Program-made: the position numbers and the translations under genes
Part shown: piece after piece, positions 31,950 to 59,544 of the stretch
How the letters are laid out: each line of letters begins with the position of its first letter
Position numbering within the stretch: the first letter of the stretch is position 1
Origin: Pontibacterium sinense
Lineage (GTDB): Bacteria; Pseudomonadota; Gammaproteobacteria; Pseudomonadales; Balneatricaceae
Assembly: GCF_015209595.1 (NCBI RefSeq)
Contig: NZ_JADEYS010000004.1
Span: 186,001-250,000, forward strand
DNA: 64,000 bases
Direction: 5' to 3'
The notes under the pieces: model-generated
Told to the model about the DNA's origin: nothing
What the model saw: only the letters and a program-made list of their open reading frames with translations
Databases searched by the model: none

Positions 31950-32177
31950 ATGACTTCCACAAATCCGTTCCGCCCGGCCGCTCTGATTCATTTTGCACTG
32001 AAAGTTCGCCAGATTGCTGACAACAGCTGGTGGGTATACCGCCACGAAATTGGCCGCAATGGCACATTGAGCATCACGTCACGTGTGGTGTTCTTTAGCC
32101 ACAGCCGTGAAGACGCTGATCTATGGATCGACCGTCAGCGAGAAGAAGCGACGATTTACATGTTGTCTGAAAACTAA
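31950..32177 (+). CDS. hypothetical 75-residue protein
   Basis: Small basic protein of unknown function, with two aromatic-rich stretches (NSWWVYRHEIG and ADLWIDRQREEA) and no membrane segment or cysteine. The pattern suggests a folded alpha/beta domain, and an ATG follows a pyrimidine-rich spacer with no strong ribosome-binding site. It stands alone, convergent with the response regulator gene across repeat elements. I do not recognise a family. Confidence 0.5.
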   Translation: MTSTNPFRPAALIHFALKVRQIADNSWWVYRHEIGRNGTLSITSRVVFFSHSREDADLWIDRQREEATIYMLSEN

Positions 32178-39198: not shown

Positions 39199-40683
39199 AT
39201 GGAACGAACACTGGTCAGCTGGATCGGTGGCCACGATCTAAAATGCAACGACGCTGAAGACGCTGACCGTGGGCCACTCATTGCTACGCTGTCTGCACAA
39301 TCCTACGATTGTGTTGAGCTACTTTATAATTACCCTGAGCAAGAAGTTGAGCCTTACCTTCGCTGGTTACAACAGCAGACTGGGAAGAGTATCAATGCGC
39401 GTCGGGTAGACCTTTCATCACCCATTCACTTCGGTGAGATATATCAAAGCGCTGAGTCGTTACTGGCCGAGGTGATAGGCCGCGATAACGAACATCAGCT
39501 GCACATCCTATTAAGCCCCGGAACCCCCGCCATGCAGGCGGTATGGATTCTGTTGGGCAAGACGCGTTATACCGCGACTTTCTGGCAGTCTTCCCGGGAA
39601 CAGGGTGTCGAGCAGGCAGTTATCCCCTTCGACATTTCCGCAGAGTATGTGCCCGCTGCAGATAAATTGTCGGCGGCGACCTTAAGTCGACTTGCTGCGG
39701 CTGAGGTGCCGATTGATGCCGCCTTTGATGACATCATCACGCATAATCCACAGATGCAAACCCTCAAATCGCAAGCCACTGTGCTGGCTGAGCGTGAAGT
39801 TCCTGTGCTGATTTACGGTGAGTCCGGCACGGGCAAGGAGTTGTTTGCGCGGGCGATTCATAACGCCAGTCAGCGTGCTGGCAAGCCGTTTATTGCGGTT
39901 AACTGCGGCGCTTTTCCAACTGATCTGGTGGATTCCGTTTTGTTTGGGCATAAGAAAGGCGCATTCACAGGCGCCAATGTCGATAAAGCCGGGGTGTTTG
40001 CGCAAGCCAATGGTGGCACTCTGTTTCTGGATGAGTTTGGTGAGCTGGAAGCATCCGTGCAAGTGCGCTTGTTACGTGTCTTGCAAGACGGCTCGTTTAC
40101 GTCAATAGGTGCTGAGAGTGAGCAGCAGGTTGATGTACGTATTATCACCGCAACCAATCGAAATCTGATGTTGGAGGTAAGTGAAGGTCGTTTTCGGGAG
40201 GATCTGTTCTATCGTGTGGCAGTGGGGGTGTTGCACCTTCCACCATTGCGAGAGCGGCAGGGGGATATATCCCGGTTAACCGATTACCTATTGGCGGCGA
40301 TTGGCCAGTCTGACTCACACCTGAAAGATAAAAAAGTGTCTGTCGAGGGAAGAAATCTTATTTTAAGGCAGCCCTGGCAAGGTAACATACGCGAGTTGCA
40401 CTCTACATTGCTTCGCGCAGCCCTGTGGAGCCAGTCTGATGTGATTACACGGGCCGATATCGATCAGGCATTGTTTCGTATGCCTGAGCGGGAATCCGAT
40501 CTCTTAGGCCAGGATGTCTCGCAAGGTATTGATGTTCAGGCATTATGTGATGATGTCATGCGCCACTATATTCCTCTGGCGCTGGAAGTAGCACAGGGTA
40601 AAAAGAAAAAAGCGGCCGAGCTGTTGGGATTAAATAACTACCAGACGCTCAGCAACTACATAGAGAAATTAGACATCAATTAA
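39199..40683 (+). CDS. CARF-domain sigma-54-dependent activator, RtcR-like
   Basis: 494-residue regulator. The N-terminal about 150 residues form a Rossmann-like CARF domain: it starts TLVSWIGGHD, and LLSPGTPAMQ (residues 104-113) is the glycine/threonine ligand loop of CARF proteins such as RtcR and Csm6. The AAA+ core has Walker A GESGTGKE (207-214), GAFTGA (254-259), which contacts sigma-54, and Walker B TLFLDEF (274-280). A Fis-type HTH (about 455-494, KKKAAELLGLNNYQTLSNYI) completes it. Ligand binding to CARF should relieve inhibition of the ATPase and open sigma-54 promoters. ATG 39199 is chosen for its AAGGA site; two sigma-54 promoters follow in the same island. The ligand is unknown. 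Confidence 0.9.
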   Translation: MERTLVSWIGGHDLKCNDAEDADRGPLIATLSAQSYDCVELLYNYPEQEVEPYLRWLQQQTGKSINARRVDLSSPIHFGEIYQSAESLLAEVIGRDNEHQLHILLSPGTPAMQAVWILLGKTRYTATFWQSSREQGVEQAVIPFDISAEYVPAADKLSAATLSRLAAAEVPIDAAFDDIITHNPQMQTLKSQATVLAEREVPVLIYGESGTGKELFARAIHNASQRAGKPFIAVNCGAFPTDLVDSVLFGHKKGAFTGANVDKAGVFAQANGGTLFLDEFGELEASVQVRLLRVLQDGSFTSIGAESEQQVDVRIITATNRNLMLEVSEGRFREDLFYRVAVGVLHLPPLRERQGDISRLTDYLLAAIGQSDSHLKDKKVSVEGRNLILRQPWQGNIRELHSTLLRAALWSQSDVITRADIDQALFRMPERESDLLGQDVSQGIDVQALCDDVMRHYIPLALEVAQGKKKKAAELLGLNNYQTLSNYIEKLDIN

Positions 40684-40687
40684 CAGT

Positions 40688-40702
40688 TGGCACGGCTTTC
40701 GC
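40688..40702 (+). promoter_or_regulatory. sigma-54 promoter upstream of hsdM
   Basis: TGGCACG-GCTT-TCGC matches the consensus TGGCACG-N4-TTGC at 10 of 11 defined positions, with the invariant GG (40689-40690) and GC (40701-40702) exactly ten bases apart. Transcription should start near 40713, leaving a short leader before hsdM. It begins five bases after the stop codon of the sigma-54 activator gene. Confidence 0.85.
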
Positions 40703-40741
40703 CTTTACCTGTATATCAATACTTACCAGGTAATAAATATT

Positions 40742-42427
40742 ATGCAGCTGCTGCCATCGTCAAAAGCAATAAATGCTGAACGTAATGAACAAGCTGTTCA
40801 GCAGATAAGGTATAAGAAACAGATGCTAACAGGTAAAATTCGCGGTCAGATCGATCAGGTATGGGAGATGTTCTGGACGGGAGGCGTGGCCAATCCGATC
40901 TCAGTTATCGAACAAATTTCCTACCTGCTTTTTATTCGCCGTTTGGACGAGCTGCAACGTACCGCAGAACGCCGATCACAGGCAACTGGCCTGCCGCTGA
41001 AAGATCCGACCTTTGGCCCGGATGAGCAAACGCTGCGCTGGAACAACTTCAAAGATAAAGATCCAGACGTGATGCTGGATATCGTACAGAACAAAGTCTT
41101 TCCTAAGATCAAAACACTACAGGCAGAGGGTAGTTTTGCTGAGCATATGAAAGACGCGATCTTTATGATCCCGTCTGCCAAGCTACTGGATCAGGTGGTG
41201 CAGTTACTCAGCGCCATTGATATGAACGACAAAGACACCAAAGGTGATCTGTACGAATACCTGTTAAGTAAGCTACAACAGTCGGGTGTGAACGGTCAGT
41301 TCCGTACCCCACGTAATATCATCGGCATGATGGTTGAGCTGATGCAGCCTAAGCCGGGCGACACGATCTGTGACCCTTCTTCGGGCACCTGTGGCTTCCT
41401 AATGGCTGCCGTAGAGTATGTCGAGACGCATCACAGCAAGGAGATTAACCAGCCGGTGAACCGCGTGCGTTTTAACAACGATATGTTTACCGGTTACGAT
41501 TTCGATAAACATATGTTGCGCATCGGTGCTATGAACATGCTGCTGCATGGGATTGAAAACCCTGCCGTGCACTACCGCGACAGCCTGCAAGATCAGGGCG
41601 ACGACAATATCAGCGAAGCCTTCAACCTGATATTGGCCAACCCGCCATTTAAAGGCTCTGTGGATTTCGATATTGTCGCGCCGGATCTGCTGCGCGCCTT
41701 GGGTAAAAGCCCCGTCACCAAAAAACCTAAGCCCACCTTTAAAATCGAGCTTGATGAAGATGGCAACGAAATACAGGTTGAGGTGAAGAAAAAGAAACCG
41801 ACCGAAAAGTCCGAGCTGCTGTTTCTGGCGTTGATACTGCGGATGCTCAAAGTCGGTGGCCGTGCAGCGGTGATTGTGCCGGATGGTGTACTTTTTGGTT
41901 CCACCAAATCCCATAAAGCGATTCGGCAGAAGATCGTTGAAGGCCAGAAACTGGAAGCGGTGATCTCGCTGCCTTCCGGTGTATTTAAGCCTTACGCGGG
42001 TGTCAGTACCGCGATTCTGATCTTTACCAAAACCAACTCCGGCGGCACCGATAACGTCTGGTTTTACGATATGCAGGCCGACGGTTATTCGCTGGATGAT
42101 AAACGCACTCAGCTCTGTAAAGAGGGTGAAACCCCCACCCATAAACAGAGCAATATCAGCGATATTATCAGCCGCTATCAAAGCCTGACGGATAACGGGC
42201 GGGTTAATCCAGACGGTCCAGAATACTCACGTAAGCGTACCGAGCAGAGTTTTATGGTGCCGGTGGCGGATATCGAAAGTAACGATTTTGACCTGAGTTT
42301 GAATCGCTATAAAGAAGTGGTGTATGAAGAGATTCAGTACGACAGCCCGAAGGAGATTCTGACGCGGATTAAGGCGTTGCAGAATAAGATGGCGGCGGGT
42401 GTGAAAGAATTGGAGGGATTGTTGTGA
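40742..42427 (+). CDS. hsdM: type I restriction-modification methyltransferase subunit HsdM
   Basis: 561-residue N6-adenine DNA methyltransferase subunit. The HsdM_N helical domain (about residues 28-160) starts with the typical LTGKIRGQIDQVWEMFWTGG and SVIEQISYLLFIRRLD. The SAM-binding motif I is DPSSGTCGFL (about 209-218), and the catalytic motif IV is NPPF (about 300). Together with HsdS it methylates a bipartite recognition site; with HsdR it forms the restriction complex. The start at 40742 may be too early: an ATG at 40823 matches the family N terminus. Either start lies downstream of the predicted sigma-54 start site. The stop overlaps the hsdS start (GTGA). Confidence 0.96.
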   Translation: MQLLPSSKAINAERNEQAVQQIRYKKQMLTGKIRGQIDQVWEMFWTGGVANPISVIEQISYLLFIRRLDELQRTAERRSQATGLPLKDPTFGPDEQTLRWNNFKDKDPDVMLDIVQNKVFPKIKTLQAEGSFAEHMKDAIFMIPSAKLLDQVVQLLSAIDMNDKDTKGDLYEYLLSKLQQSGVNGQFRTPRNIIGMMVELMQPKPGDTICDPSSGTCGFLMAAVEYVETHHSKEINQPVNRVRFNNDMFTGYDFDKHMLRIGAMNMLLHGIENPAVHYRDSLQDQGDDNISEAFNLILANPPFKGSVDFDIVAPDLLRALGKSPVTKKPKPTFKIELDEDGNEIQVEVKKKKPTEKSELLFLALILRMLKVGGRAAVIVPDGVLFGSTKSHKAIRQKIVEGQKLEAVISLPSGVFKPYAGVSTAILIFTKTNSGGTDNVWFYDMQADGYSLDDKRTQLCKEGETPTHKQSNISDIISRYQSLTDNGRVNPDGPEYSRKRTEQSFMVPVADIESNDFDLSLNRYKEVVYEEIQYDSPKEILTRIKALQNKMAAGVKELEGLL

Positions 42428-43656
42428 GTTTAATGTCTTTTCCAATAGGGGAACATGTCGAAAAAGTAAAAACCTGGAACCCCAAGAGTTCGGACCTCCA
42501 AAACTGGTTTAAATATATAGATCTAAGTTCTGTCGATAAAAATGACAAGAACGTAGATGTTTCAGCAGTTCTCAATTTACTTCCGTCAGAGGCTCCAAGT
42601 CGCGCGAGACAGTTAGTCCAGCGGGATGATGTATTGGTTTCAACCGTCAGGCCAAATCTTAATGGTGTAGCGATGGTTCCAGATGAGTTGGACGGTGCTA
42701 CAGCCTCAACGGGATACAGTGTATTACGAGCGAATAACAAAACACTTTGTCCTAACTATCTGAAGTTTTGGGTGCAGTCCGCTCAGTTCATATCAGATAT
42801 GGTTAGGAAAGCTACGGGTGCTAACTATCCTGCCGTAACTGATAAGGTGATTAAGGAGAGTAGAATCCCACTCCCCCCACTAGAAACCCAAAAGCAGATT
42901 GCCGCGGTCTTAGAAAAAGCCGATCAACTGCGTAAAGACTGCCAGCAGATGGAGCAGGAGCTAAACAACCTCGCCCAGTCTGTCTTTATTGATATGTTTG
43001 GTGATCCAGTGAACAATCCGAAAGGATGGGATAAAGTGCCTCTGTCTACCATCGTTTCTGATTATGTTGGGGGTAAGAGTCTGGTAGCGGCAGATGACGA
43101 TAGCACTGAATATAGGAATAAGGTTCTAAAAATTAGTGCAGTTACTTCTGGAGAGTTTAAGTCTCAGGAGGTTAAACCGTTGCCAAATGACTATGAGCCG
43201 CCTGAAGAGCATTTTGTACGAAAAAATGATCTGTTGTTTAGTCGAGCAAATACGACAGAGTTGGTTGGTGCAACGACGATGGTTTTTGACGAGTTTTCAG
43301 GTTTAGTTTTGCCAGATAAGTTATGGCGGCTTGTTTGGGTTGATGAAGAGAATATCTCATCAGTTTTTGTATGGCAGCTTTTAACGAATATTGGTATGCG
43401 AGCAGAAATTAGTAAGCTTGCTAGCGGTTCTGGAGGCTCAATGAAAAATATATCTAAGGGCAAACTGAAAACTCTTGAGGTAATCCTTCCGCCAAAGGAT
43501 GTTCAAGAGAAGTACGAAGAGATATACCTTAAGCTGAGAGCAGAAAAGTTGATGAATAAGTCAATGAAAGTCCTAGTTAGTGATGGTTTCTCTTCCCTCA
43601 TGCAACGTGCCTTCAAAGGTGAACTTAACCTAAACCCCGCTCAACAGGTCGCTTAA
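42424..43656 (+). CDS. hsdS: type I restriction-modification specificity subunit HsdS
   Basis: 410-residue DNA-recognition subunit with two target-recognition domains (about residues 5-155 and 205-365). They are separated and followed by the conserved helical spacers: PLPPLETQKQIAAVLEKADQLR with LAQSVFIDMFGDPVNNPKGW in the centre, and QRAFKGEL near the C terminus. Each recognition domain reads one half of the bipartite site, which cannot be predicted by eye. It probably starts at GTG 42424, overlapping the hsdM stop; an ATG twelve bases downstream is an alternative. Composition drops in GC within both recognition domains, as expected for exchangeable modules. Confidence 0.95.
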   Translation: MSLMSFPIGEHVEKVKTWNPKSSDLQNWFKYIDLSSVDKNDKNVDVSAVLNLLPSEAPSRARQLVQRDDVLVSTVRPNLNGVAMVPDELDGATASTGYSVLRANNKTLCPNYLKFWVQSAQFISDMVRKATGANYPAVTDKVIKESRIPLPPLETQKQIAAVLEKADQLRKDCQQMEQELNNLAQSVFIDMFGDPVNNPKGWDKVPLSTIVSDYVGGKSLVAADDDSTEYRNKVLKISAVTSGEFKSQEVKPLPNDYEPPEEHFVRKNDLLFSRANTTELVGATTMVFDEFSGLVLPDKLWRLVWVDEENISSVFVWQLLTNIGMRAEISKLASGSGGSMKNISKGKLKTLEVILPPKDVQEKYEEIYLKLRAEKLMNKSMKVLVSDGFSSLMQRAFKGELNLNPAQQVA

Positions 43657-43693
43657 ACAACAGCTATCGTGATCAGAAACTAAGGACGGTTTT

Positions 43694-46600
43694 ATGGCTC
43701 AGCAATCCAATTTTGTATTTCTCTCTCAAATGGCGGTGGAATTACCCGCTTGTGATGAGTTATTGGTTCGGGCGCAAGAGGCGGAAGTGGCGATTAAACG
43801 CGATCCGCGTGTCAGTGCCTTTTATGCCCGCAACTGTCTGGAGCTGATGGTCGAAACCGTCTTTGATATCGATAACTGGCTCCAGCGTCCGCGCCACGAT
43901 ACTACCTTGATGAGCCTGATCCACGATAAGGACTTTAAGCAGAACCTGAAGCATGGACTGTTCGCCAAGCTCAAACTGATTATCCAGATCGGTAATGCGG
44001 CGGTGCACGATAAAAAACCGCCGCCGCAACGTGCTGCCCTGCAAAGTGTGAAAGATCTGCACCATGTGTTGTACTGGTTTGTCCGCACCTATATGCCGCT
44101 GCCCGCGGGCATACTGCGCAGTGAATTCAGCATTCCTGCCTTTGATGAGGCCCTGATTCCGCAACGCGTCGAACTCGAACTTGAGCTGGCCCAGCAGGCC
44201 ATTAAGAGCATTGAAAAGGTTAAGGCGCTGGAGGAAAAGTTAGCCAACGCCGATCAGGCTAAGCGCGAAGAACATGAGAGACTCTTAAAGGAAAACGCTG
44301 AGCAGCGCGCGCAAAACGAAGCACTGCTGGCGCAGATAGAACAAATCAAACAAACCGCACAAGCCAGTGAAGACAAACACGACTATAACGAAGCGGAAAC
44401 CCGTCACTACCTGATTGATGCGCTGCTGCATGAAGCAGGCTGGCCGCTGGATAAAGAGCGTGACCGGGAATACAACGTCACCGGTATGTCAATCTCCAAG
44501 GCAAATCCTAACGGCAACGGCTATGTGGATTATGTGCTTTGGGGGGATGATGGTACCGCCTTAGCGGTGGTAGAAGCGAAACGTACGCAACGTAGCCCGG
44601 AAGATGGGCAGCATCAGGCGAAACTCTACGCCGATTGTTTAGAAAAACAGTGTGGCGTCCGCCCGATCATCTTTTACAGCAATGGCTATGAAACCCGCCT
44701 TTGGGATGACTGCCAGTATCCGCCGCGCAGCGTGCAGGGTTTTTACACGCAGGCAGAGCTGGCGTTGATGATTAAGCGGCGACATGATCGCCAGCCGTTT
44801 TTTGCGCCTGAATCCGGTAGCCTCAGCGCCAAAATCAACGACGATATTACCAACCGTCATTACCAGAAGGCGGCGATCACCCATATTTTGCAGCACTTCG
44901 AGCAGGAGCGGGAGCGTAAAGCCCTGTTGGTCATGGCAACCGGCACCGGTAAAACCCGCACTGTGATCAGTCTGGTAGATCTGCTGGTTAAACATGACTG
45001 GATCAAAAATATCCTCTTTCTGGCGGATCGCAATGCACTGTTAACGCAGGCGAAAAAGAACTTCGTCAAACAGCTGCCACGTATCAGCTGCACGATTCTG
45101 GATTCAGGCTTGCAGAAAGACAGCCTGAAAAATCGGCTCTACTTCTCTACCTATCCCACCATGAAAAACCTGCTTGATCGGCCCGCCGACGAGCGTCCGT
45201 TTGGCGTCGGGTATTTTGACCTGATTGTGGTGGATGAGGCGCATCGCTCGGTTTATGCCAAATACCGGCAGATATTTGAGTACTTCGATGGCCTGCTGGT
45301 GGGTTTAACCGCCACTCCTAAAGATGAAGTGGAAAAGAACACCTACGATATCTTTGATCTGCAAGATGGTATGCCCACCTATGCGTATGAAGATGAAAGT
45401 GCGTACGCCGAACATTATCTGGTACCGCCGACCAAAATATCCGTCGCAACTCAATTTATCCGTGAAGGTATTCAGTACAACAAACTGAGTAAGGCAGAGC
45501 AGGCGGAGTGGGAAGCTAAATCTGAGCTGGAAGGGCGGGATGAGGTGCTGCCGTCTGAATTGAATAAGTTCCTGTTCAACGAAGACACCGCCGAGAAGAT
45601 GTTTGCCCAGCTGCTGGGTAAAGATGAGCACGGTGGTATTCATGTGGAAGGCGGAGATGTGATCGGTAAAACGATCATTTTTGCGGCGAACAACGACCAT
45701 GCTGAATTTCTACAAAAGATGTTCGACAAGAACTACCCCAAGTGGAAAGGAAAGCTGGCACAAGTTATCACCTATAAGAACTCTTATGCCCAAAGCTTGA
45801 TTGATGCGTTTAGTGAAGATGATGGCAAGGATTTTGATCAGGAGAATCCGGCACTCAGGATTGCGATCTCGGTTGATATGCTGGATACCGGTATTGATGT
45901 GCCGGAAGTGGTTAATCTGGTGTTGTTTAAAGTGGTGCAATCCAAGGTGAAGTTCACCCAGATGATCGGTCGCGGCACGCGTTTATGTCCCAACCTGTTT
46001 GGGCCTCGGGACGATAAAACCACTTTTAAGGTGTTTGATTACTGTCAGAACTTTGAATTTTTTGATGCCAACCCTAACGGTGTGCCCACTCATATTGCGA
46101 AACCAGTGACACAGCAGGTGTTCGAAAAGCGGGTGCGTTTAAGTACTTTGCTTAATGGGCGGCTGCGCGACGCGAAGTATCGGCAGGAGCATCCAGAGGA
46201 TTGTGAGCTGCTCACCACATTGAATGGCTATCAGTTGGATATGCTGCACCATCAGGTGAGCGGGATGAATCTGGATAACTTTATCGTCCGTCCAAAGCGC
46301 AAAGCGGTGGAACCTTTTCTACAGCGCCCCCACTGGGATGATATTGATGATACCAAACACACGGAGCTGGAAAACCAGATCTCACAGCTGCCGACTGAAG
46401 CGCAGGCGTTCAATGAAGATGAGCAGGTGAACAACCTGGCGAATCGCTTCGACAATATTGTACTGACTATGCAACTGGCACAGCTGGAAAAAGGGATGAT
46501 TCCAGACGCGAGCCGAACACGGGTGATGGAGTTTGCTCAACAGTTGGAGGCGAAAACCACCATTCCTGATGTATTGGCACAACTGGAGCTGATTCAGTCC

Positions 46601-47266
46601 GTGCAAACCATCGCATTCTGGCAGGATGTGCATGTCAGCACCTTGGAGGATATGCGCCGTCGCCTGCGTAATCTGATGTTTGCGCTGGATAAAGAGCAGA
46701 AAGAGGTGGTGTATACCGATTTCGAAGATGAGATCACGGGTATACGTGATGTCACGGGTGTTTATGCCTCACCGGGTATCGATCTGGCCCAATACCGGAA
46801 GAAAACCGAGCTCTATATCAAAGAACATCAAGACCAAATCACCATCCAAAAGCTGAAACGTAACAAGCCGATTACCCAATCTGATCTGGATGTGCTGGAA
46901 GGCTTGTTGCTGGATGTCAGCGGTATGTCTGATGTTGAGGCGTATCGTGAAAAAGTCCTTGAAGATAAGCCACTGGGCAGCTTTATCAGGCAGCTGGTGG
47001 GGCTGGATATGCAAGCCGCCAAAGAAGCCTTCAGTGATTTCCTGGATGAGGGTATCTATAACGCTGAGCAGATCAACTTCGTCAATAAGGTGATCGATCA
47101 TCTGATGGATAACGGCATTCTGGATATGGGACATATCTTTGAGCCGCCGTTTACCGATGATCACTCTGAAAGTGCTTACGGCTTCTTTGACGAAGATAAG
47201 GTGGTTGAGCTATTTAGCCGCATTCGGAAGGTGAATGCTAATGCTATGGCAGAGAGTGTGGCTTAG
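43694..47266 (+). CDS. hsdR: type I restriction endonuclease subunit HsdR
   Basis: 1190-residue restriction and translocation subunit. Residues about 1-140 form a DUF4145-like helical domain, and residues 180-235 are coiled coil. The PD-(D/E)xK nuclease is visible as YVDYVLWG (about 279-286) and VVEAKR (about 292-297). The helicase motor has Walker A ATGTGKT (about 415), DEAH-type box VVDEAHRS (about 514), LTATPKDE, and late motifs including QMIGRGTRLC. The C-terminal helical region binds HsdM. The order M-S-R and the domain content resemble the EcoKI/EcoEI group. Co-transcribed with hsdS (37-bp gap) from the sigma-54 promoter upstream of hsdM. Confidence 0.96.
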   Translation: MAQQSNFVFLSQMAVELPACDELLVRAQEAEVAIKRDPRVSAFYARNCLELMVETVFDIDNWLQRPRHDTTLMSLIHDKDFKQNLKHGLFAKLKLIIQIGNAAVHDKKPPPQRAALQSVKDLHHVLYWFVRTYMPLPAGILRSEFSIPAFDEALIPQRVELELELAQQAIKSIEKVKALEEKLANADQAKREEHERLLKENAEQRAQNEALLAQIEQIKQTAQASEDKHDYNEAETRHYLIDALLHEAGWPLDKERDREYNVTGMSISKANPNGNGYVDYVLWGDDGTALAVVEAKRTQRSPEDGQHQAKLYADCLEKQCGVRPIIFYSNGYETRLWDDCQYPPRSVQGFYTQAELALMIKRRHDRQPFFAPESGSLSAKINDDITNRHYQKAAITHILQHFEQERERKALLVMATGTGKTRTVISLVDLLVKHDWIKNILFLADRNALLTQAKKNFVKQLPRISCTILDSGLQKDSLKNRLYFSTYPTMKNLLDRPADERPFGVGYFDLIVVDEAHRSVYAKYRQIFEYFDGLLVGLTATPKDEVEKNTYDIFDLQDGMPTYAYEDESAYAEHYLVPPTKISVATQFIREGIQYNKLSKAEQAEWEAKSELEGRDEVLPSELNKFLFNEDTAEKMFAQLLGKDEHGGIHVEGGDVIGKTIIFAANNDHAEFLQKMFDKNYPKWKGKLAQVITYKNSYAQSLIDAFSEDDGKDFDQENPALRIAISVDMLDTGIDVPEVVNLVLFKVVQSKVKFTQMIGRGTRLCPNLFGPRDDKTTFKVFDYCQNFEFFDANPNGVPTHIAKPVTQQVFEKRVRLSTLLNGRLRDAKYRQEHPEDCELLTTLNGYQLDMLHHQVSGMNLDNFIVRPKRKAVEPFLQRPHWDDIDDTKHTELENQISQLPTEAQAFNEDEQVNNLANRFDNIVLTMQLAQLEKGMIPDASRTRVMEFAQQLEAKTTIPDVLAQLELIQSVQTIAFWQDVHVSTLEDMRRRLRNLMFALDKEQKEVVYTDFEDEITGIRDVTGVYASPGIDLAQYRKKTELYIKEHQDQITIQKLKRNKPITQSDLDVLEGLLLDVSGMSDVEAYREKVLEDKPLGSFIRQLVGLDMQAAKEAFSDFLDEGIYNAEQINFVNKVIDHLMDNGILDMGHIFEPPFTDDHSESAYGFFDEDKVVELFSRIRKVNANAMAESVA

Positions 47267-47419
47267 CCCTTATTTTAGATAACTGGTTCGTAGTAAATAC
47301 CCGCTTAGGTATAGGCTTCCCAAAGGGGGGTATGCCGGAACTGAGTGTCGGGAAAACTCTCAAGCAGTAGAGATAGGCATGTTTTTGTTTAAGCCCGTTG
47401 ATTATGGAGTGATAGTACG

Positions 47420-49798
47420 GTGCCAAGGGATAATACGCAGTATCAGTTTAATGGGAAAACGTATGGAAAAGGGCCGTTGGTTCTTAACGTGGTTAGGGAA
47501 TATGCTAATCAATCGGGTTTTTCATACTTAGATATACGCGAAAATTTTTTGGATATTTCCAATGCAAAAGATGTTGTTTTGGATGAGGTTGCTTATCAAA
47601 CCAAGCTTGAGAAATCGATAGATGTAGAAAAACGATATTTCTTAAGCGATCCGGTGCTTGATGTTGATGGACAAAAATTCTACGTCAGCAATCAGTGGGG
47701 AAGGGGTAATATCAATGGTTTTATTCTCCGTGCCAGAGAGATGGGTATGGATATAAAAATTATTGCAGATGAAAACAGTGAGCTGATCAGGCTTTTTACT
47801 CAATATAAGAGTAACCCTCGTACTGAATGGATCAATTCCTATCGAAATCGCTGCCAGTCATGTTCTGAAATTGATGTAGGTACGTTTGATTTTACGGCGG
47901 ATGACTTTCTTGAGAACTATTGGCGGTCAGCAAGTAATGGTATTTCAGGTGTTCAGCCGGGAATGCTTAGCACCCATGAATTTACTAACCTCAAGAAGCA
48001 ATTACCGGATATTAGTCGAAAAATAATAAATAACCCTTCAGCTGAAACCTATAAAGAAATTATTAAGTGGGCAAAAAAGGCAAAGGAGGGTGGTCTGTTT
48101 ACGTCAGTAAAACATGGCGTCATTAATCGATTTTTCTGTGCCTGCGCTCCCGATCTATTGTGTACTATTTTAAATCTTAGTCATCTGCAAAATTTCATAT
48201 CTAAATGGAACGAAAAGAAGTATGGGGCTAATGTTGATAGTTCAGGAAATTGGTTTGATTTAAATGCCGGAGTTATGAAAGATATTAGAATGTGCGGCTT
48301 AGAGGAGGAAGATGATTTTCTGGTAAATACGTTTGTTTATTCACTGAAGGAATACCTTCTTGATGGTGCGCCAGAGCCCGGTACTAATGTTCAGACCGCT
48401 CTTATCTATCCCCCGACTATATCCGGTTCCGTGATTAAGCCCTCTTCGGGTTTAACTGGGATAAATCAAATACTCTACGGCCCCCCTGGTACAGGTAAGA
48501 CTTACAGCACCATTGAAAAGGCGGTGAGCATAGCAGACCCGGCGCTGGTCAAATCCCTGTCTGAGTCAGCTCTGCCGGCTAATGAGGTTAGGTTGACCCT
48601 GAAGGGTCGTTTTGATCAGTTGCTTCAGGCAGGACAAATTGTATTTACTACTTTTCATCAGAGTTTTAGCTATGAGGATTTTGTCGAGGGATTAAAGGCA
48701 GAAAGTAATGGCGGCCAGATTAGTTACTCAGTTGAAGATGGGCTCTTTAAGAAAATTTGTGAGCGAGCTGACCCAGTGAGGTATTCAGGCGGGCTTGATG
48801 AGGCTATTGCTCAGGTTAAAGAGCTGTGTTCGGAGGAACCTCTTCGATTATTGACAGCTACAGGTAAACGATTCTCTGTGTCATATCGTGGCGGTAAAAC
48901 ATTTAGTTGTTTGCCAGAGGCTTCGATGGAACAGCGTGAGCTGCCTGCCAATATTGACCATGTAAAGAAGGTTGCCCTCGGTGAGATACCTGAAAATCTT
49001 TATTGTGGAAGCTATGTGAAGTCCATAGCAAAGTATGTATATGATACCTATAACATCGACAAAGGTGTAACCAGCGATTCAGTTGAGGCTTCTCCTCATG
49101 TGTTAATTATCGATGAGATTAACCGAGGTAATATTTCCAGAATTTTCGGTGAGTTAATTACATTGCTGGAGCCTGGTAAGCGTAAGGGGCAGGCAGAGGC
49201 TTTGTCGGTAACACTACCTTATAGCAAAGAGGAGTTTTCGATACCCGCTAACCTGCATGTAATAGGCACAATGAATACCGCCGATACCAGTTTGGCGAAA
49301 ATTGATATTGCCCTGCGCCGCCGGTTTCAGTTTGTTGAAGTGATGCCCGATATGCACCAACTAAGAGGCGTGGTCGTTGCAGGTATTGATGTTCGTCTTC
49401 TTCTGAAAACGATCAACCAGCGTATAGAGCTGTTTTATGACCGGGATCATACCATTGGTCATAGCTATTTTATGGGGCTGTCCTCAAGTTCCGGTATTGA
49501 TGACCTGGCTACTATCTTTAAGACGCAAATTATCCCGCTTTTGGAAGAATATTTCTTTGAAGATTGGGCAATAATCCACCGTGTACTGGGCGATCACCTT
49601 AAGAATAAAAAACATCTTCAATTTATTGTCCAGCGGCACACTGACCAAACGATGCGGCGTTTGATGGGGGCAAATTGGAAAGCGGATACTAATATCCAGT
49701 CAGTGTGGAAACTTAATTCGGAAGCGCTAAAAAATGCTGATGCTTATATCGGTATATATTCGCCGGCCAGTGATACGGCAGCCAAGGCGGATAATTAA
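47420..49798 (+). CDS. mcrB: McrB-like type IV restriction GTPase/ATPase
   Basis: 792-residue AAA+ protein of the McrB family. The N-terminal about 330 residues, which would recognise modified DNA, do not match a domain I can name. The motor has Walker A GPPGTGKT (about 353-360), Walker B LIIDEINRGN (about 561-570) and the McrB signature MNTADTSL (about 617-624). The NTAD core is intact, but threonine replaces the usual arginine of NTADRS. The final ALRRRFQF is standard. It forms rings that drive McrC cleavage of methylated DNA. It uses a GTG start with GGAG upstream. The mcrC gene follows after 2 bp. A 153-bp gap separates it from hsdR, so it may share the hsd transcript. Confidence 0.92.
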   Translation: MPRDNTQYQFNGKTYGKGPLVLNVVREYANQSGFSYLDIRENFLDISNAKDVVLDEVAYQTKLEKSIDVEKRYFLSDPVLDVDGQKFYVSNQWGRGNINGFILRAREMGMDIKIIADENSELIRLFTQYKSNPRTEWINSYRNRCQSCSEIDVGTFDFTADDFLENYWRSASNGISGVQPGMLSTHEFTNLKKQLPDISRKIINNPSAETYKEIIKWAKKAKEGGLFTSVKHGVINRFFCACAPDLLCTILNLSHLQNFISKWNEKKYGANVDSSGNWFDLNAGVMKDIRMCGLEEEDDFLVNTFVYSLKEYLLDGAPEPGTNVQTALIYPPTISGSVIKPSSGLTGINQILYGPPGTGKTYSTIEKAVSIADPALVKSLSESALPANEVRLTLKGRFDQLLQAGQIVFTTFHQSFSYEDFVEGLKAESNGGQISYSVEDGLFKKICERADPVRYSGGLDEAIAQVKELCSEEPLRLLTATGKRFSVSYRGGKTFSCLPEASMEQRELPANIDHVKKVALGEIPENLYCGSYVKSIAKYVYDTYNIDKGVTSDSVEASPHVLIIDEINRGNISRIFGELITLLEPGKRKGQAEALSVTLPYSKEEFSIPANLHVIGTMNTADTSLAKIDIALRRRFQFVEVMPDMHQLRGVVVAGIDVRLLLKTINQRIELFYDRDHTIGHSYFMGLSSSSGIDDLATIFKTQIIPLLEEYFFEDWAIIHRVLGDHLKNKKHLQFIVQRHTDQTMRRLMGANWKADTNIQSVWKLNSEALKNADAYIGIYSPASDTAAKADN

Positions 49799-49800
49799 GT

Positions 49801-51132
49801 ATGACTGGTTTTGTCATACGAGAATATGGCTTGCTGGCTAGGGAGGGCTTGCCATCCTCTATAAGCACTGATCTCAATAGGCAGGTGATACCGGCTTCAG
49901 CTTGGGACTGGCTGCTTACTGAGGCCTGTGGTGACGGCGAGCATAAACAGCTTGTTCGGCCCCGAAAGGCAGATGGGCATTTGCACTTGCAGGTGCTTAA
50001 CTACGTGGGGTCGGTAACCACACCTTGTGGTACGCATATCGAGATTCTTCCTAAGCACAGTGAACACTCTGATGAGGCCAGTTTGTTGTGTGGCCGTCGC
50101 TTGTTAATAAAAATGCTTAACCGGGTGTATGGCCTTAATATGCGCGAGTTTGAGCGCGCTCATCTCCAGTTATTTAAACAGCCCTTACCGGAAGTTTTGA
50201 TTGGCCACTTTCTGTTAGAGGTTAAGCAGTTAGTCAGGCGTGGTATTCGCGCTGACTACCGCAGCCAGCGAGATGAAACCACCTATTTGCGTGGACGGTT
50301 ACAAATAGCGGCTCAGCTGCGCCAGCCACCAGGACGGCAGCATCATTTTCAGGTCGAGTACGATGACTTTCTGCCTGACAGGCCGGAGAACCGACTGCTT
50401 CATTCTTCGCTTAAGCAGGTGTTACGTTGGAGTCAGTCGTTGGAGAATCAGCGCCTTGCCCGTGAATTGTTGTTTGTTTTTGATGACATTCCTGCGTCCA
50501 GTCAATACCGCAACGATTTTAGTCGATGGCAGCTAGATAGAAATATGCAGCACTACCGGGCGTGTAAGCCATGGTGCGAATTTATTCTAAATGAACAAAC
50601 GCCATTTACGCTTGCGGGCGCCCATTTTGGCCAGTCCTTTTTATTTCCTATGAACGATCTGTTCGAGAAGTATGTAGCGCGTGTACTTGAGCGACAGTTG
50701 GCTACCGGGTTTCAGCTGAGGGAGCAGGCGGCTAGTCGTTATCTTATCGATTCACATAATGACAAAAGTCTATTTCAGCTTCGGCCGGACCTTTTAATTA
50801 GGACCAGAGCTAAGCCGGTTGCAGTGCTGGACTGTAAATGGAAGTTACTTGATCAGAATAAAAATCATGTGGCGGGTAACGATGAAAAAACTTATGGCCT
50901 GAGTCAGGCAGATATATACCAACTTTATGCCTATGGTCAGAAATATCTGGGGGGCACCGGATGCGTTTATTTGGTTTACCCAAAGCATGGGCGCTTAAGT
51001 CAACCGTTACCGGTATTTCATTATGATAAATACCTGAGTTTGCACGTTATCCCATTTTGCCTGGACGACGATCATTTTTGTCTGCCTTCGGGGGATGCCC
51101 CTGAATGGATTTTTCAGGATGAGTTAAGTTGA
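49801..51132 (+). CDS. mcrC: McrC-like type IV restriction endonuclease subunit
   Basis: 443-residue McrC family protein. The N-terminal part contains the family pattern (IEILPKHSEHS, LLIKMLNRVYG, ADYRSQRDETTYLRGRLQI). The C-terminal PD-(D/E)xK nuclease has the metal-binding aspartate in LRPDLLI (about 328) and the catalytic DCKWK (343-347), then QLYAYGQKY. Together with the upstream McrB-like motor it would cleave DNA bearing modified cytosines. The start codon ATG follows the mcrB stop after two bases, so translation is coupled. The gene ends at a repeat-bearing, AT-rich spacer. Confidence 0.95.
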   Translation: MTGFVIREYGLLAREGLPSSISTDLNRQVIPASAWDWLLTEACGDGEHKQLVRPRKADGHLHLQVLNYVGSVTTPCGTHIEILPKHSEHSDEASLLCGRRLLIKMLNRVYGLNMREFERAHLQLFKQPLPEVLIGHFLLEVKQLVRRGIRADYRSQRDETTYLRGRLQIAAQLRQPPGRQHHFQVEYDDFLPDRPENRLLHSSLKQVLRWSQSLENQRLARELLFVFDDIPASSQYRNDFSRWQLDRNMQHYRACKPWCEFILNEQTPFTLAGAHFGQSFLFPMNDLFEKYVARVLERQLATGFQLREQAASRYLIDSHNDKSLFQLRPDLLIRTRAKPVAVLDCKWKLLDQNKNHVAGNDEKTYGLSQADIYQLYAYGQKYLGGTGCVYLVYPKHGRLSQPLPVFHYDKYLSLHVIPFCLDDDHFCLPSGDAPEWIFQDELS

Positions 51133-51166
51133 CATGGCGTTACTCATTAGGACTGAGTACAAGACT

Positions 51167-51205
51167 AGGTACTCAGGTACTCAGGTACTCAGGTACTCAG
51201 GTACT
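51167..51205. repeat. 4.9 tandem copies of an 8-bp repeat upstream of a sigma-54 promoter
   Basis: AGGTACTC occurs at 51167-51174, 51175-51182, 51183-51190 and 51191-51198, then AGGTACT at 51199-51205. Each junction contains the symmetric core GGTACC-like GTACTCAGGTAC. It lies 161-200 bp before the sigma-54 promoter, within the usual range for enhancer sites of activators. Confidence 0.85.
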
Positions 51206-51324
51206 GGGTGTCTGGGGATGGGAGGTAGATAAGGGACTAGGTAACGATCTTGTGGGGTAAATTTATTTATCTTTGGGTAATTTTTTGTATTGGTTGGTTG
51301 TCTTTTGTTTTATTTTTATTTTGT

Positions 51325-51337
51325 TAACTGATTGATA
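51325..51337 (-). promoter_or_regulatory. predicted IHF binding site
   Basis: On the minus strand, TATCAATCAGTTA matches the IHF consensus WATCARNNNNTTR at every position. It lies between the 8-bp repeat array and the sigma-54 promoter, where IHF bending is needed to bring an activator to the polymerase. The surrounding sequence is AT-rich, so a chance match is possible. Confidence 0.6.
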
Positions 51338-51365
51338 TTAAATGGATAATTTTATTTTTTGTAGG

Positions 51366-51380
51366 TGGCACGCTATCTGC
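51366..51380 (+). promoter_or_regulatory. sigma-54 promoter upstream of the DUF4258/TerY-P operon
   Basis: TGGCACG-CTAT-CTGC matches TGGCACG-N4-TTGC at 10 of 11 defined positions; GG (51367-51368) and GC (51379-51380) are ten bases apart. The expected transcription start is near 51391, which excludes the upstream GTG (51385) and supports ATG 51418 for the first gene. Confidence 0.87.
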
Positions 51381-51417
51381 AATAGTGGTAGTAAATATCA
51401 CTGCTGGGATAAATATT

Positions 51418-51771
51418 ATGAGAGACGTCATTGTTGACACCAATCTTACCCAAGCCGATAAAACGGATAATGATGAACACTTTGAGTTGTCTCACCATGC
51501 CCAGACACGGATGTCGCAACGATCAATTAACCTGGGGGAGGTTCAATCGGTGTTGCAGCATGGCAGGGTTATTCATAGTCGTAGAGCTCGTTTTTATGTA
51601 GTCGGTCATAAAGATGTAGAACGCTTTAGTCATGCGGGTATCGATGTTAGAGCGTTGGAAAATATTCAGGTGGTTGTGGATGAGATCTCAAATAGAATTT
51701 TGACCGTCTACCGAAATAGAAATTTTCGCCAGATTCGTCCCACGAGTCGTCGTGAGAGAGGCTTACACTGA
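51418..51771 (+). CDS. DUF4258 family protein
   Basis: 117-residue protein whose central part fits DUF4258: SHHAQTRMSQRSINLGEVQSVLQHGRVI, then FYVVGHKDV and VVVDEISNRILTVYRNRNF. This family has a RelE/BrnT-like small alpha/beta fold related to ribonuclease toxins, though most members are uncharacterised. It is the first gene downstream of the second sigma-54 promoter, 130 bp before the TerY-like gene, and so probably the first product of the induced defence operon. No obvious antitoxin accompanies it. The role could be an RNase effector or an RNA-binding accessory; neither is proven. Confidence 0.8.
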   Translation: MRDVIVDTNLTQADKTDNDEHFELSHHAQTRMSQRSINLGEVQSVLQHGRVIHSRRARFYVVGHKDVERFSHAGIDVRALENIQVVVDEISNRILTVYRNRNFRQIRPTSRRERGLH

Positions 51772-51901: not shown

Positions 51902-52570
51902 ATGAAAAAATTTGCGGCTAAGAGTGCGCGTCCAATTCCGGTTATTATCTTGGCTGATACCTCGGGAAGCATGAGCGTCGACGGAAAAGTTGATGCTATG
52001 AATCAGGCAATTCGCGGAATGATTGCCAGCTTTGCCGAAGAGAGTCGACTAAATGCTGAGATACACCTTTCGGTTATCACTTTTGGCGGGAACGCTGAGA
52101 CACACCTTGCTTTAACCCCTGCTCATCAAATCACCCATTTTGAAGACTTTTACGCAACTGGTGGCACACCTATGGGGGAGGCGCTGACTATTGCTAAAGA
52201 GCTTATTGAAGATAAAGAGAAAATTTCTTCACGTGCATACCGTCCGGTAATTGTGCTGATTTCCGATGGCCATCCAACTGACGACTGGGAGGGGCAGTTC
52301 AGTGCGTTCTGCAGTGCTGAACGAGCACAAAAGGCAACGCGCATGGCGATGGCCATTGGCAGCGATGCTGATGAAGTGATGATGAATGACTTCATCAACG
52401 ATCTGGAGGCGCCATTGTTTAGAGCCAGTAATGCACAGGACATTATTAAGTTCTTCCGGGCTGTGAGTATGAGTGTTACCAGTCGTTCGCGTAGCACGAC
52501 GCCTAATCAACCAGTTGCTATTACCTACGATGAGATCCCAGAAGATGATGAATTAGATTTGGATTTCTAG
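51902..52570 (+). CDS. TerY-like von Willebrand factor A domain protein
   Basis: 222-residue single vWA-domain protein of the TerY type. The MIDAS metal site is complete: DTSGS at residues 19-23, the threonine in GGTPMGEAL, and the aspartate in LISDGHPTDDW. It is cytoplasmic, without a signal peptide. In TerY-P triads the vWA protein is thought to be a substrate or scaffold regulated by the associated phosphatase and kinase, which follow immediately here. The ATG has AAGGA upstream. The stop is one base from the phosphatase start. Acidic C-terminal tail. Confidence 0.92.
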   Translation: MKKFAAKSARPIPVIILADTSGSMSVDGKVDAMNQAIRGMIASFAEESRLNAEIHLSVITFGGNAETHLALTPAHQITHFEDFYATGGTPMGEALTIAKELIEDKEKISSRAYRPVIVLISDGHPTDDWEGQFSAFCSAERAQKATRMAMAIGSDADEVMMNDFINDLEAPLFRASNAQDIIKFFRAVSMSVTSRSRSTTPNQPVAITYDEIPEDDELDLDF

Positions 52571-52571
52571 A

Positions 52572-53267
52572 GTGGGATTTTATTTACAGGCGGCCTCTGT
52601 CCGGGGCCCCGGTCATATTGTTCAAAACCTGTCCAATCAGGATGCGGTTCTCACCCGTCGCTGGAGGACGGGTTGGTTAGCGGTTGTCAGTGATGGAATG
52701 GGATCCAGGCCTCATTCAGATATTGGCTCCCGATCTGTTTGTAAGGCGGTGTTGATGGCGGTAAAGGCGTTGCCATTTGACGTACCCGATCGGGAGCTTA
52801 TTCACTGCATTTACAAAAACTGGTTGGCTCTTCTCGGTTCTATTGCAGCGAACGATGCCGTTGCTACCAGTCTGATTGCTTGGGGTAAAAATACAGGCGA
52901 AACACGATTGCTACAGCTAGGGGACGGTGCGGTTCTATATCAGGCTAATGATGGACGTGGTTTGCTGTCAGGACGTTCTGAAAATACCTTTGGTAACGAG
53001 ACGACGGGCCTAGGGGTATCGCGTAAGTACAGTGATTGGGTCTGTCGCACAATTTGGTTAACGAAGCCGAAACAAGGCTTAGCGCTGATGACCGATGGTA
53101 TTAGTGATGATCTTGAACAAATGGATACATTTGTTCCTGAGGTGATCATGAAGATGAGGCATATGGGGCGGCGCTATGGAAAACAGTGGATAACTAATGA
53201 GTTGGAGTCTTGGCCTACTCCGTCTCATTCTGACGATAAGACAATCGCGCTGATTTACAGGATGTAA
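52572..53267 (+). CDS. PP2C-family Ser/Thr phosphatase of a TerY-P triad
   Basis: 231-residue cytoplasmic phosphatase. The metal-binding aspartates of PP2C are visible: NQDAV (D24), VVSDGMGS (D41, G42), the LLQLGDGAVL strand, LALMTDGISDDLE, and the final SDDKTIALIY. It is expected to reverse phosphorylation carried out by the kinase encoded next. It starts at GTG 52572, one base after the vWA stop; translation coupling explains the poor start codon. The three genes (vWA, PP2C, kinase) form the conserved TerY-P triad described by Anantharaman, Iyer and Aravind. Confidence 0.9.
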   Translation: MGFYLQAASVRGPGHIVQNLSNQDAVLTRRWRTGWLAVVSDGMGSRPHSDIGSRSVCKAVLMAVKALPFDVPDRELIHCIYKNWLALLGSIAANDAVATSLIAWGKNTGETRLLQLGDGAVLYQANDGRGLLSGRSENTFGNETTGLGVSRKYSDWVCRTIWLTKPKQGLALMTDGISDDLEQMDTFVPEVIMKMRHMGRRYGKQWITNELESWPTPSHSDDKTIALIYRM

Positions 53268-53268
53268 G

Positions 53269-54738
53269 ATGACAGAAGAAGCGAAGGTACAGGCGAGTAC
53301 TCAAAAGAAAAAAGTGGGAAATCGTAAAGTTGCAGACCGTAAGGGCACGGTTTACACCCTAAAAGCTAAAATTGGGCAGGGTGGGCAGGGTGTTGTTTGC
53401 GCGACGGATATGCCTGGTGTACTGGTGAAAATTCAGACAGAAAAAGTCCTGGAAAAGCGAAAGTCTTGGTTACGTCACGTTAGATGGTTAATGCAGCAGG
53501 ATTTGGATGGACTAAACATTGCCCGCCCGGTTGAGGTGATTACTAAGCCTGCTAGCCAAAATGGTTATGTGATGGAGTTGATGGATGGTCTGGAACCATT
53601 AACGCAGTCCTTGGAAAAGGCGCATCTTGCATTAGCTGAAAACGAAGATACCCCGTTGGAAGGGTATAACCAGACGGGTGGCCTCAAGCGGCGATTATTA
53701 CTGCTTAAAGAGTTGGCCCGAACCATGGCCAATCTCCATGCCAGAGGGTTGGCGTACGGTGATCTATCTCCGGCCAATATCTTTATTTCCGAATCGACAG
53801 AACATCATCAACTGTGGTTGATCGATTGCGACAATATTTGTGTTAGCGAGCGTGGTGGTTACGGGGACTATCACACGCCAGGTTATGGGGCTCCCGAAAT
53901 TATGCGGGAGGAATCTGGTGTGAATATGTCCACCGACTGCTGGAGCTTTGCCGTGATTGCGCTGCAACTGCTTGCGCATTGCCATCCTTATAATTCTGGT
54001 TTGGTCATGGAAGATGCTGAATTGGATGATGGTGAGATGGAAAGGGCTCAGGAAAAATCTGAGCGCGGTGAGCTTCCCTGGATTTACGATGAAGGTGATG
54101 ACAGCAATGCTTGGATACCTGGAAATGGATTACCTTGGGAAGTTGTCACCACTCAAAAGCTAAGGAAATTGTTCAATCGGTGTTTCAGCGTTGGGCGTGA
54201 CTGCTTATCCGAACGCCCGGATATGAGTACATGGGCTGACGCCTTAGATGAAGCATCTGGTTCAACACTGGTGTGTAGTAACAAAACAGAGTGTGGTGCT
54301 ACATTTATTTACAATACGGCTCTTGAATGTCCTTTTTGTGAAACCGTGCAACCTGAGCGTTCTCATCTGTGTTTGCACCATTATTTCTACAATGAAGACG
54401 CCCTTTCAGGTGAATCTCCCTGGATATCTACCCCCTCGGTACAGCTACTGAATCTTGACCAAAAAACTGATTTTCACCTAGCGCCTTTAGGCACGGAGCT
54501 GTATAGCGAGTCTCCGATAATCTGTTCCATCATACTTCGTGGCGATGGTGTTTTTATTGTGCCGGCCCCTGATGGCTATGTTGAGTTACAGCGGAAACGA
54601 GATGGAAAAGCATACGTGCTGGACAGGTTGCAGCGCTTAAAAAATGAAAGTCGTGCTGGTGAGGAATATGCGCTTCATCTGCGTCACAAGGATGAGGCGG
54701 GTTACAGTTCCCACCCGGTCTGGAAATTTGTCTGGTAG
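53269..54738 (+). CDS. Ser/Thr kinase-like protein of a TerY-P triad, with zinc ribbon
   Basis: 489-residue cytoplasmic protein. The N lobe has the glycine loop GQGGQGVV (36-43) and a lysine, K54, in VLVKI. The catalytic loop is YGDLSPANIF (163-172), with D165 and N169 retained although HRD has become YGD. The metal loop is DCD (186-188) instead of DFG. The APE-type motif is GAPEIM. An active kinase is likely in spite of the changed motifs. Residues about 340-360 carry four cysteines (TECG and CPFCE among them) suggesting a zinc ribbon, followed by a beta-rich C-terminal domain that I do not recognise. It starts one base after the phosphatase stop. Confidence 0.88.
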   Translation: MTEEAKVQASTQKKKVGNRKVADRKGTVYTLKAKIGQGGQGVVCATDMPGVLVKIQTEKVLEKRKSWLRHVRWLMQQDLDGLNIARPVEVITKPASQNGYVMELMDGLEPLTQSLEKAHLALAENEDTPLEGYNQTGGLKRRLLLLKELARTMANLHARGLAYGDLSPANIFISESTEHHQLWLIDCDNICVSERGGYGDYHTPGYGAPEIMREESGVNMSTDCWSFAVIALQLLAHCHPYNSGLVMEDAELDDGEMERAQEKSERGELPWIYDEGDDSNAWIPGNGLPWEVVTTQKLRKLFNRCFSVGRDCLSERPDMSTWADALDEASGSTLVCSNKTECGATFIYNTALECPFCETVQPERSHLCLHHYFYNEDALSGESPWISTPSVQLLNLDQKTDFHLAPLGTELYSESPIICSIILRGDGVFIVPAPDGYVELQRKRDGKAYVLDRLQRLKNESRAGEEYALHLRHKDEAGYSSHPVWKFVW

Positions 54739-59541: not shown

Positions 59542-59544
59542 GTT

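Follow-up and report, generated by a model that had tools for sequence, protein, structure and literature searches.

A probable CARF–sigma-54 regulon in Pontibacterium sinense with a separate promoter head for each defence module

How might a bacterial island that joins DNA restriction to a predicted RNA-attacking system be switched on: along one long transcript, or from separate promoters that answer to a common activator? The question is raised by a 64,000-nucleotide stretch of Pontibacterium sinense (contig NZ_JADEYS010000004.1, positions 186,001 to 250,000; hereafter the window), in which the gene for a CARF-AAA+-helix-turn-helix (HTH) activator is followed by a type I restriction-modification (R-M) system, an mcrBC-like pair and a CoCoNuT locus. 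In our assessment the island very probably constitutes a CARF–sigma-54 regulon with one promoter head for each defence module. Comparison with related loci indicates that its two sigma-54-type promoters are most likely driven by the adjacent CARF activator.

The activator and two sigma-54-type sites

The activator open reading frame (ORF; 39199-40683, plus strand) belongs by its profile matches to the RtcR_PspF2 family of sigma-54 activators. Against the PADLOC profiles it reached 695 bits with RtcR_PspF2 CARF_AAA_HTH (residues 3-493), compared with 252 bits for PspF1 and 206 for RtcR, and its Sigma54_activat domain scored 223 bits in Pfam. The Walker A motif GESGTGKE stands at residue 207 and GAFTGA at residue 254, the latter without variation among 15 aligned activator sequences; the description of this protein in the initial annotation, as a CARF-AAA activator with an intact GAFTGA motif, is thus borne out. 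The Fis-type HTH was matched by HTH_8 with an E value of 8e-4, at 19.5 bits against a Pfam cut-off of 22, and the region lies inside the span of the PADLOC profile. An rpoN gene was found in the host genome. Relatives of the CARF domain were sought in viral contigs and none was found; GGTAA-N6-TTACC sequences sought 5' of the activator gene with autoregulation in view were scattered and formed no consistent site.

Two sites of the form TGGCACG-N4-YNGC had been singled out by the initial annotation, one before the hsd genes and perhaps serving mcrBC too, the other before the DUF4258, TerY-P and CoCoNuT genes. Both are present, at 40688-40702 (TGGCACGGCTTTCGC) and 51366-51380 (TGGCACGCTATCTGC), and the genes are as it described. 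We refer to them as P1 (40688-40703) and P2 (51366-51381), candidate -24/-12 promoters on the plus strand with predicted starts near 40713 and 51391. The sigma-54 consensus is TGGCACG-N4-TTGCW, to which the two sites conform at 10 of 12 and 11 of 12 positions, both with GG-N10-GC spacing. From the T of TGG to the ATG there are 54 nt at P1 (hsdM, 40742) and 52 nt at P2 (the DUF4258 gene, 51418). That the two might be recent copies of a single promoter was not shown, the leaders sharing 15 of 41 positions in an ungapped comparison.

The motif TGGCACG-N4-YNGC alone is weak evidence, and the case rests on comparison. These two are the window's only matches, against an expectation of 0.26, and two or more turned up in 4 of 100 shuffled versions; the whole 4.64-Mb genome contains 29 matches against 24 for a reversed control, and relaxing the pattern gives no enrichment (12 matches, 12.4 expected). 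These counts favour the explanation that both sites are chance matches to a short consensus. We nevertheless regard that explanation as scarcely credible, because the same position, spacing and partner elements are found in relatives, held-out ones included, and the strand asymmetry is 37 to 1. Moreover, a weight matrix built from 29 loci in other genomes, with the window excluded and identical sites counted once, placed the two sites first and second on both strands of the 64 kb (15.3 and 14.7; the next scored 12.4).

Counterparts in related loci

We assembled 33 loci, the window included, from genome contigs, genome searches and plasmids; their activators are 39-64% identical. At the end of the activator gene most have TGGCAYG-N4-TYGCT or a close variant, whereas the next gene varies: the first behind P1 is hsdR in 28 of the 33, hsdM in the window, and a DUF4258 or VWA gene in four loci without R-M. 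A P1-type site scoring at least 13.5 is present in 29 loci, 28 of these being training sites and one the window; the other four (L018, L020, G410 and Polaromonas L177) each have a weaker candidate. With weak sites included, the distance from the activator stop codon to the P1-type site is 1-20 nt in 29 of 33 loci and 84-166 nt in G189, G303 and Polaromonas; in Rhodoferax the site overlaps the end of the gene.

Further activators were fetched later and held out (21, G946 being omitted with its gene cut at the contig start). A site scoring at least 11 lay inside 250 nt of the stop codon in 13 of them, where 0.014 is expected per locus; several of these sites are near-identical and hence not independent. 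Other loci stand outside the 33: L015, whose contig ends 26 nt past the stop; L021, which matches at residues 2-430 only; and the distant L019, L022-L025, L029, L051 and G122 (L095). Among them, L019, L023, L024 and L029 have a downstream sigma-54 site and L051 has one overlapping the gene end; no downstream site was found at the thresholds used in L021 and L022, and L025 ends soon after the gene. As a separate observation, one type I R-M cluster in G1007 (C6, 1042081-1057407) lies between two convergent PspF2 activators, and P1 was found behind neither.

Across the 33 loci, co-directional intergenic sites numbered 37, against one on the opposite strand over equal length; 28 of the 37 are training sites. 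Eight are not of P1 type. Three of these (G555 11526, L178 10013 and G189 5777) fall inside ORF starts and were not counted as second promoters, and five look real: window P2 and those of G542, G756, G492 and a P. luteola plasmid. A site at G739 22514 was set aside, as it lies on the strand opposite two long ORFs.

Five loci were found that combine PspF2, type I R-M and CoCoNuT (the window, G542, G756, G954 and P. ceruminis, the last fetched after the promoter model was made), and each has a candidate before the CoCoNuT. It is placed shortly 5' of the VWA gene, or in the window 5' of the DUF4258 gene, and that of G954 is degenerate, with GA rather than GC in the -12 element. Where PspF2 and CoCoNuT occur with no R-M between them, a site precedes the first CoCoNuT-side gene in four of four loci (G303, G189, Rhodoferax and Polaromonas, the last weak at 12.2). 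Both sites thus recur in relatives that keep the layout, where the initial annotation had proposed to look and where their absence would have counted against the idea.

Other modules have comparable heads. In G542 a promoter (12.7) with an enhancer at 12/16 (described below) precedes an MBL gene (PDC-M48B); before the same kind of module G954 has an enhancer at 14/16 with a degenerate TGGCATAACTCGTGAA. The second head of P. luteola (15.1; enhancer 15/16) precedes DruH3-DruE3 of Druantia III.

Some further sites are recorded here as observations. In G542 (L137) a site at 32175 in joined coordinates, after the CoCoNuT, combines a promoter candidate of 12.7 with an enhancer at 12/16 and a distance of 86 nt; behind it are three genes (L137:12412-18192) with weak LeoA/LeoBC matches. 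In G1257, at a locus lacking P1 behind its activator, a strong sigma-54 site (17.3) with an enhancer at 13/16 lies at 13859 in joined coordinates, before a 107-amino-acid ORF and a helicase-like gene. At G492 (L142) 9516, a sigma-54 site at 12/12 with an enhancer at 12/16 and an IHF-like site at 8/9 stands before a 262-amino-acid ORF without a Pfam or PADLOC match.

Candidate enhancers between and within genes

Inverted repeats 5' of P2-type promoters suggested GGTAA-N6-TTACC. Inspection by eye, chiefly of the P. luteola, Polaromonas and G756 loci, led us from this to two tandem GYAA-N6-TTRC palindromes with a 20-bp period (16 scored positions). A probable enhancer of this kind lies 88-118 nt 5' of eight module promoters, often with a site resembling that of integration host factor (IHF) between enhancer and promoter. 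The IHF consensus is WATCAANNNNTTR; an IHF-like match of at least 8/9 lay between the two at 8 of the 12 module promoters examined. In the window, the candidate enhancer (51257-51290, plus strand; 13/16) is 109 nt 5' of P2, and an IHF-like site (51325-51337, minus strand) matching at 9/9 falls between them. The weight of these P2 parts is in their order and distances, which match those of relatives.

The five best enhancer scores (15-16/16) among 886,605 positions all lie 5' of sigma-54 sites, at 88-100 nt in Polaromonas, G303, P. luteola and G756, and at 384 nt in G954, inside the ORF. A gap of 6 between the palindromes gave 18 matches of at least 14, and other gaps 0-10. In a joint scan of 1.17 Mb (a promoter scoring at least 9 and an enhancer of at least 12, separated by 80-125 nt), 11 sites were found on the plus strand against 3 on the minus strand; with an enhancer of at least 13 the counts were 8 and 0, three of the eight having helped to define the motif.

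Two other repeats near P2 were tried as its enhancer and dropped. About five tandem copies of AGGTACTC occupy 51167-51205, between mcrC and P2; this repeat was absent from the repeats listed for eight other loci, with no further search made, and the inverted repeat CTGAGTAC/GTACTCAG beside it was set aside on the same ground, none being among those listed. In a distant PspF2 clade (440-471 bits) the palindrome is of another type, TTTCAACC-N2-3-GGTTGAAA, seen at L023 2561-2578, L024 2889-2906 and 5' of L029 4921, and starting 93-94 nt 5' of the sigma-54 site in L023 and L024. In this clade, it seems, activator and enhancer code have diverged together.

P1 begins 5 nt past the activator stop codon, which leaves room for its enhancer only within the ORF or at a greater distance. 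In 13 sequences, drawn from the window's taxonomic order and from Pseudomonas or Azotobacter records, synonymous codon identity along the activator gene has two peaks. One candidate enhancer position, element A (40328-40361, plus strand), is about 360 nt 5' of P1 and forms the strongest synonymous-constraint window over 33 homologues (0.678 against a mean of 0.38; z 4.2), a constraint reached by 6 of 5000 column permutations. By group, it ranked top in a group of 8 and a group of 5 (0.612 versus 0.611) and third in a group of 7. Its GC content at third codon positions (GC3) is below that of the gene in 31 of 33 loci, falling in Pseudomonas-like loci from about 0.6-0.7 to 0.2-0.5. The tandem palindrome fits within the ORF at 13/16 or better in 11 of 33 loci; the chance level for 400 nt is 10-11/16, and hence this fit is clear in only part of the loci. 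Element B (40522-40534, minus strand), likewise under synonymous constraint, is an IHF-like site at 8/9, and a minus-strand IHF match at -165 to -187 of P1 occurs in 19 of 33 loci.

In G303, G189 and Polaromonas an IHF-like site adjoins the promoter instead. The ORF copy of the enhancer is gone from G303 (8/16, GC3 0.93), and a tandem palindrome at 16/16 starts at the stop codon, 88 nt 5' of the promoter. We read this case as a putative relocation of the enhancer, with Polaromonas at most a partial one.

Several results weigh against a PspF2-driven promoter and enhancer at each module. The exact promoter pattern is not enriched genome-wide, and 8 of the 21 held-out activators lack P1 at threshold. 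Two of these (G1236 and G953) have a weaker site at the stop; the other six, from five genomes (G1257, two in G1007, G854, G998 and G897), have no recognisable P1 within 250 nt. Among the held-out loci, where no VWA match was seen, the joint scan returned two sites on the plus strand, both in G1257, and one on the minus strand. Shuffling the 236-nt region with its composition preserved reached the 13/16 of the P2 enhancer in 44 of 5000 cases, and two unrelated places in the window also have this score; a perfect IHF site arose in 307 of 20,000 shuffles of the 75-nt segment. No clear enhancer was found in G189, and in G492 it reached only 12/16. No more than 19 of 33 loci have element A at 12/16 or better, 14 of 33 have no IHF-like site at -165 to -187 of P1, and Polaromonas has a 16/16 tandem between genes yet keeps 11/16 in the ORF (GC3 0.5). 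For window P1 itself there is no good enhancer, element A scoring 10/16, which is background; P1 may be weakened or served by another enhancer, and the R-M gene order also differs here.

Other sigma-54 AAA proteins are also encoded in the genome, with 4 matches at 1e-100 and 34 candidates at first look. This invites the suggestion that the promoters, though real, are served by a different enhancer-binding protein and that the CARF protein has other targets. We judge this improbable, since the promoter adjoins this activator in most relatives examined, and in G303 the enhancer has left the ORF and now stands behind the gene, beside the promoter. Furthermore, the joint scan found no enhancer-promoter pair on the coding strand of four CoCoNuT loci whose fetched stretch contains no PspF2 gene (G1059, G392, G518 and G224). 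The opposite strand of G224 carries one pair at the threshold, and in G1059 a sigma-54 AAA domain is encoded about 22 kb off on the other strand. Control by the adjacent CARF activator is the reading retained below.

Transcription units, mechanism and meaning

The modules of the island lie on the plus strand. The type I R-M system is complete by Pfam and PADLOC profiles, with hsdM (methyltransferase; 40742-42427), hsdS (42424-43656) and hsdR (43694-47266), and is followed by an mcrB-like AAA gene (47420-49798, by Pfam) and an mcrC-like gene (49801-51132) with a terminator-like hairpin near its end (51087-51105). Beyond P2 are the DUF4258 gene (51418-51771, by Pfam), the TerY-P triad of VWA, PP2C phosphatase and protein kinase (51902-54738), and the CoCoNuT genes (54747-63980), which we name CnuH-like helicase, CnuE-like, CnuB-like AAA and CnuC-like by order and resemblance. 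Parts of a type II CoCoNuT were recognised in Pfam by general profiles only (VWA, PP2C, kinase, SF1 helicase and AAA), and an RNAVSH motif occurs once in the CnuE-like protein, at 59431. Clusters homologous to this CoCoNuT are present in annotated plasmids.

The hairpin at the end of mcrC, together with P2, suggests a separate CoCoNuT unit. It is also conceivable, though we consider it unlikely, that the island is in essence a single superoperon, transcribed from the promoter of the activator gene and from housekeeping promoters further in, to which real sigma-54 sites add little. P1 sits right behind the activator stop, no terminator-like site was found between activator and hsdM by a simple scan, and a sigma-70-like site (51321-51350, 9/12) lies just 5' of P2; internal promoters independent of RtcR have been supposed by Bell 2024 (PMC11090510). 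Against this, the sigma-54 site, the enhancer geometry and the spacing recur over many genomes and several module types, and the 9 sigma-70-like sites fall short of the mean of 20.6 in shuffles. Under the regulon that we favour, these same features bear on basal expression. Because P1 adjoins the activator stop and no terminator-like site was found, basal read-through into hsdMSR is likely, and the sigma-70-like site could give basal CoCoNuT expression. The initial annotation's proposal that both modules are off until the ligand appears was therefore too strong. Read-through at a basal level would suit an R-M system that needs continuous host methylation of its DNA.

The general idea of such control is known. 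RtcR-like CARF-AAA-HTH proteins were described as often R-M-associated and as probably acting through sigma-54 (Makarova 2014, PMC4012209), and Bell 2024 (PMC11090510) described RtcR - type I R-M - CoCoNuT superoperons and proposed both their regulation and a cyclic-phosphate feedback. The initial annotation had taken type I R-M control of this kind to be undescribed and had called an RNA-end feedback loop conceivable; in the relevant passages of these papers the former is already predicted, and the latter was put forward in the second. Our island resembles the superoperons of PMC11090510 in having an activator, type I R-M with other restriction modules, a BrnT-like gene, TerY-P and CoCoNuT in one direction; the DUF4258 gene is probably the BrnT-like RelE-family gene placed there before RtcR-associated CoCoNuTs, a gene to which the main text does not give the name DUF4258. 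The word 'promoter' appears once in that main text, for the supposed internal RtcR-independent promoters, and its passages on these loci give no promoter or enhancer sequence; unlike those, the internal promoter here looks activator-dependent and has its own candidate enhancer. The activator is of the same kind as the R-M-associated RtcR-like NtrC-AAA-HTH family of PMC4012209, with predicted sigma-54 control of restriction, whereas the passages there on this family contain no cis-elements, module-by-module promoters or CoCoNuT.

With the RtcR of rtcBA (PMC7790460, PMC9650030, in their passages on the regulator) the protein shares the CARF-AAA-HTH layout and, as predicted here, a sigma-54 promoter with an upstream activating sequence and an IHF site. 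Unlike that RtcR, it fits PspF2 much better (695 versus 206 bits). Linked rtcBA repair genes mark a canonical RtcR; here a search of the host genome for RtcB was negative, the same control search being positive in E. coli and eight other genomes. Since RtcB was not found, the activator is not an rtcBA regulator. The RtcR ligand is described in PMC7790460 as tRNA 5' fragments with a cyclic phosphate, and PMC9650030 states for E. coli that such fragments are insufficient for RtcR activation and that RtcAB is required. An RtcR-type ligand for the present activator, as first envisaged, is thus an analogy only.

Within the open-licence literature, no title or abstract on promoters of such islands was among the matches listed; a search for RtcR with an upstream activating sequence or Druantia gave only Bell 2024 (eLife) and its preprint; and none was found for CARF enhancer-binding proteins in an anti-phage context or, from 2018 on, for sigma-54-dependent R-M and phage-defense promoters. 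The promoter-per-module wiring and the in-ORF enhancer look new.

We envisage that an infection-linked ligand would de-repress the CARF domain, allowing the activator to bind tandem palindromic enhancers (GYAA-N6-TTRC twice, with a 20-bp period). IHF would bend the DNA between enhancer and promoter, and the AAA+ ring would open sigma-54 polymerase at the -24/-12 promoter. P1 would then boost hsdMSR and probably mcrBC, and P2 would separately boost the DUF4258, TerY-P and CoCoNuT genes. Read-through from the activator gene would keep a low level of R-M, making the switch more likely low-to-high than off-to-on. In many relatives the P1 enhancer and IHF site may lie in the 3' part of the activator coding sequence, giving a compact activator-promoter cassette, and later modules (CoCoNuT, Druantia III, the MBL pair) would bring their own intergenic enhancer-promoter head.

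It is tempting to generalize from this arrangement, and on balance we lean towards doing so: such islands would be modular regulons, in which the coding sequence of the activator also serves as enhancer and IHF site of the promoter behind it, unrelated modules join by way of a portable enhancer-promoter head, and DNA restriction and predicted RNA attack are raised in parallel. The published guess that RtcR-like proteins switch on restriction and CoCoNuT is thereby turned into a base-level map of candidate promoter, enhancer, IHF site and predicted starts. An enhancer and promoter about 100 nt apart serve as a search key, which also pointed to promoters before the MBL module, and the enhancer accompanies the sigma-54 site before Druantia III as well. 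In 28 of 33 loci hsdR is the R-M gene nearest to the promoter, so that induction in a cell lacking maintenance methylation could turn restriction against that cell's DNA. The separate head of the CoCoNuT disfavours a purely serial model, where the timing would follow from the order of genes along one long transcript. If the modular reading is true, DNA restriction and predicted RNA attack would be raised from separate promoters, and not sequentially along one transcript.

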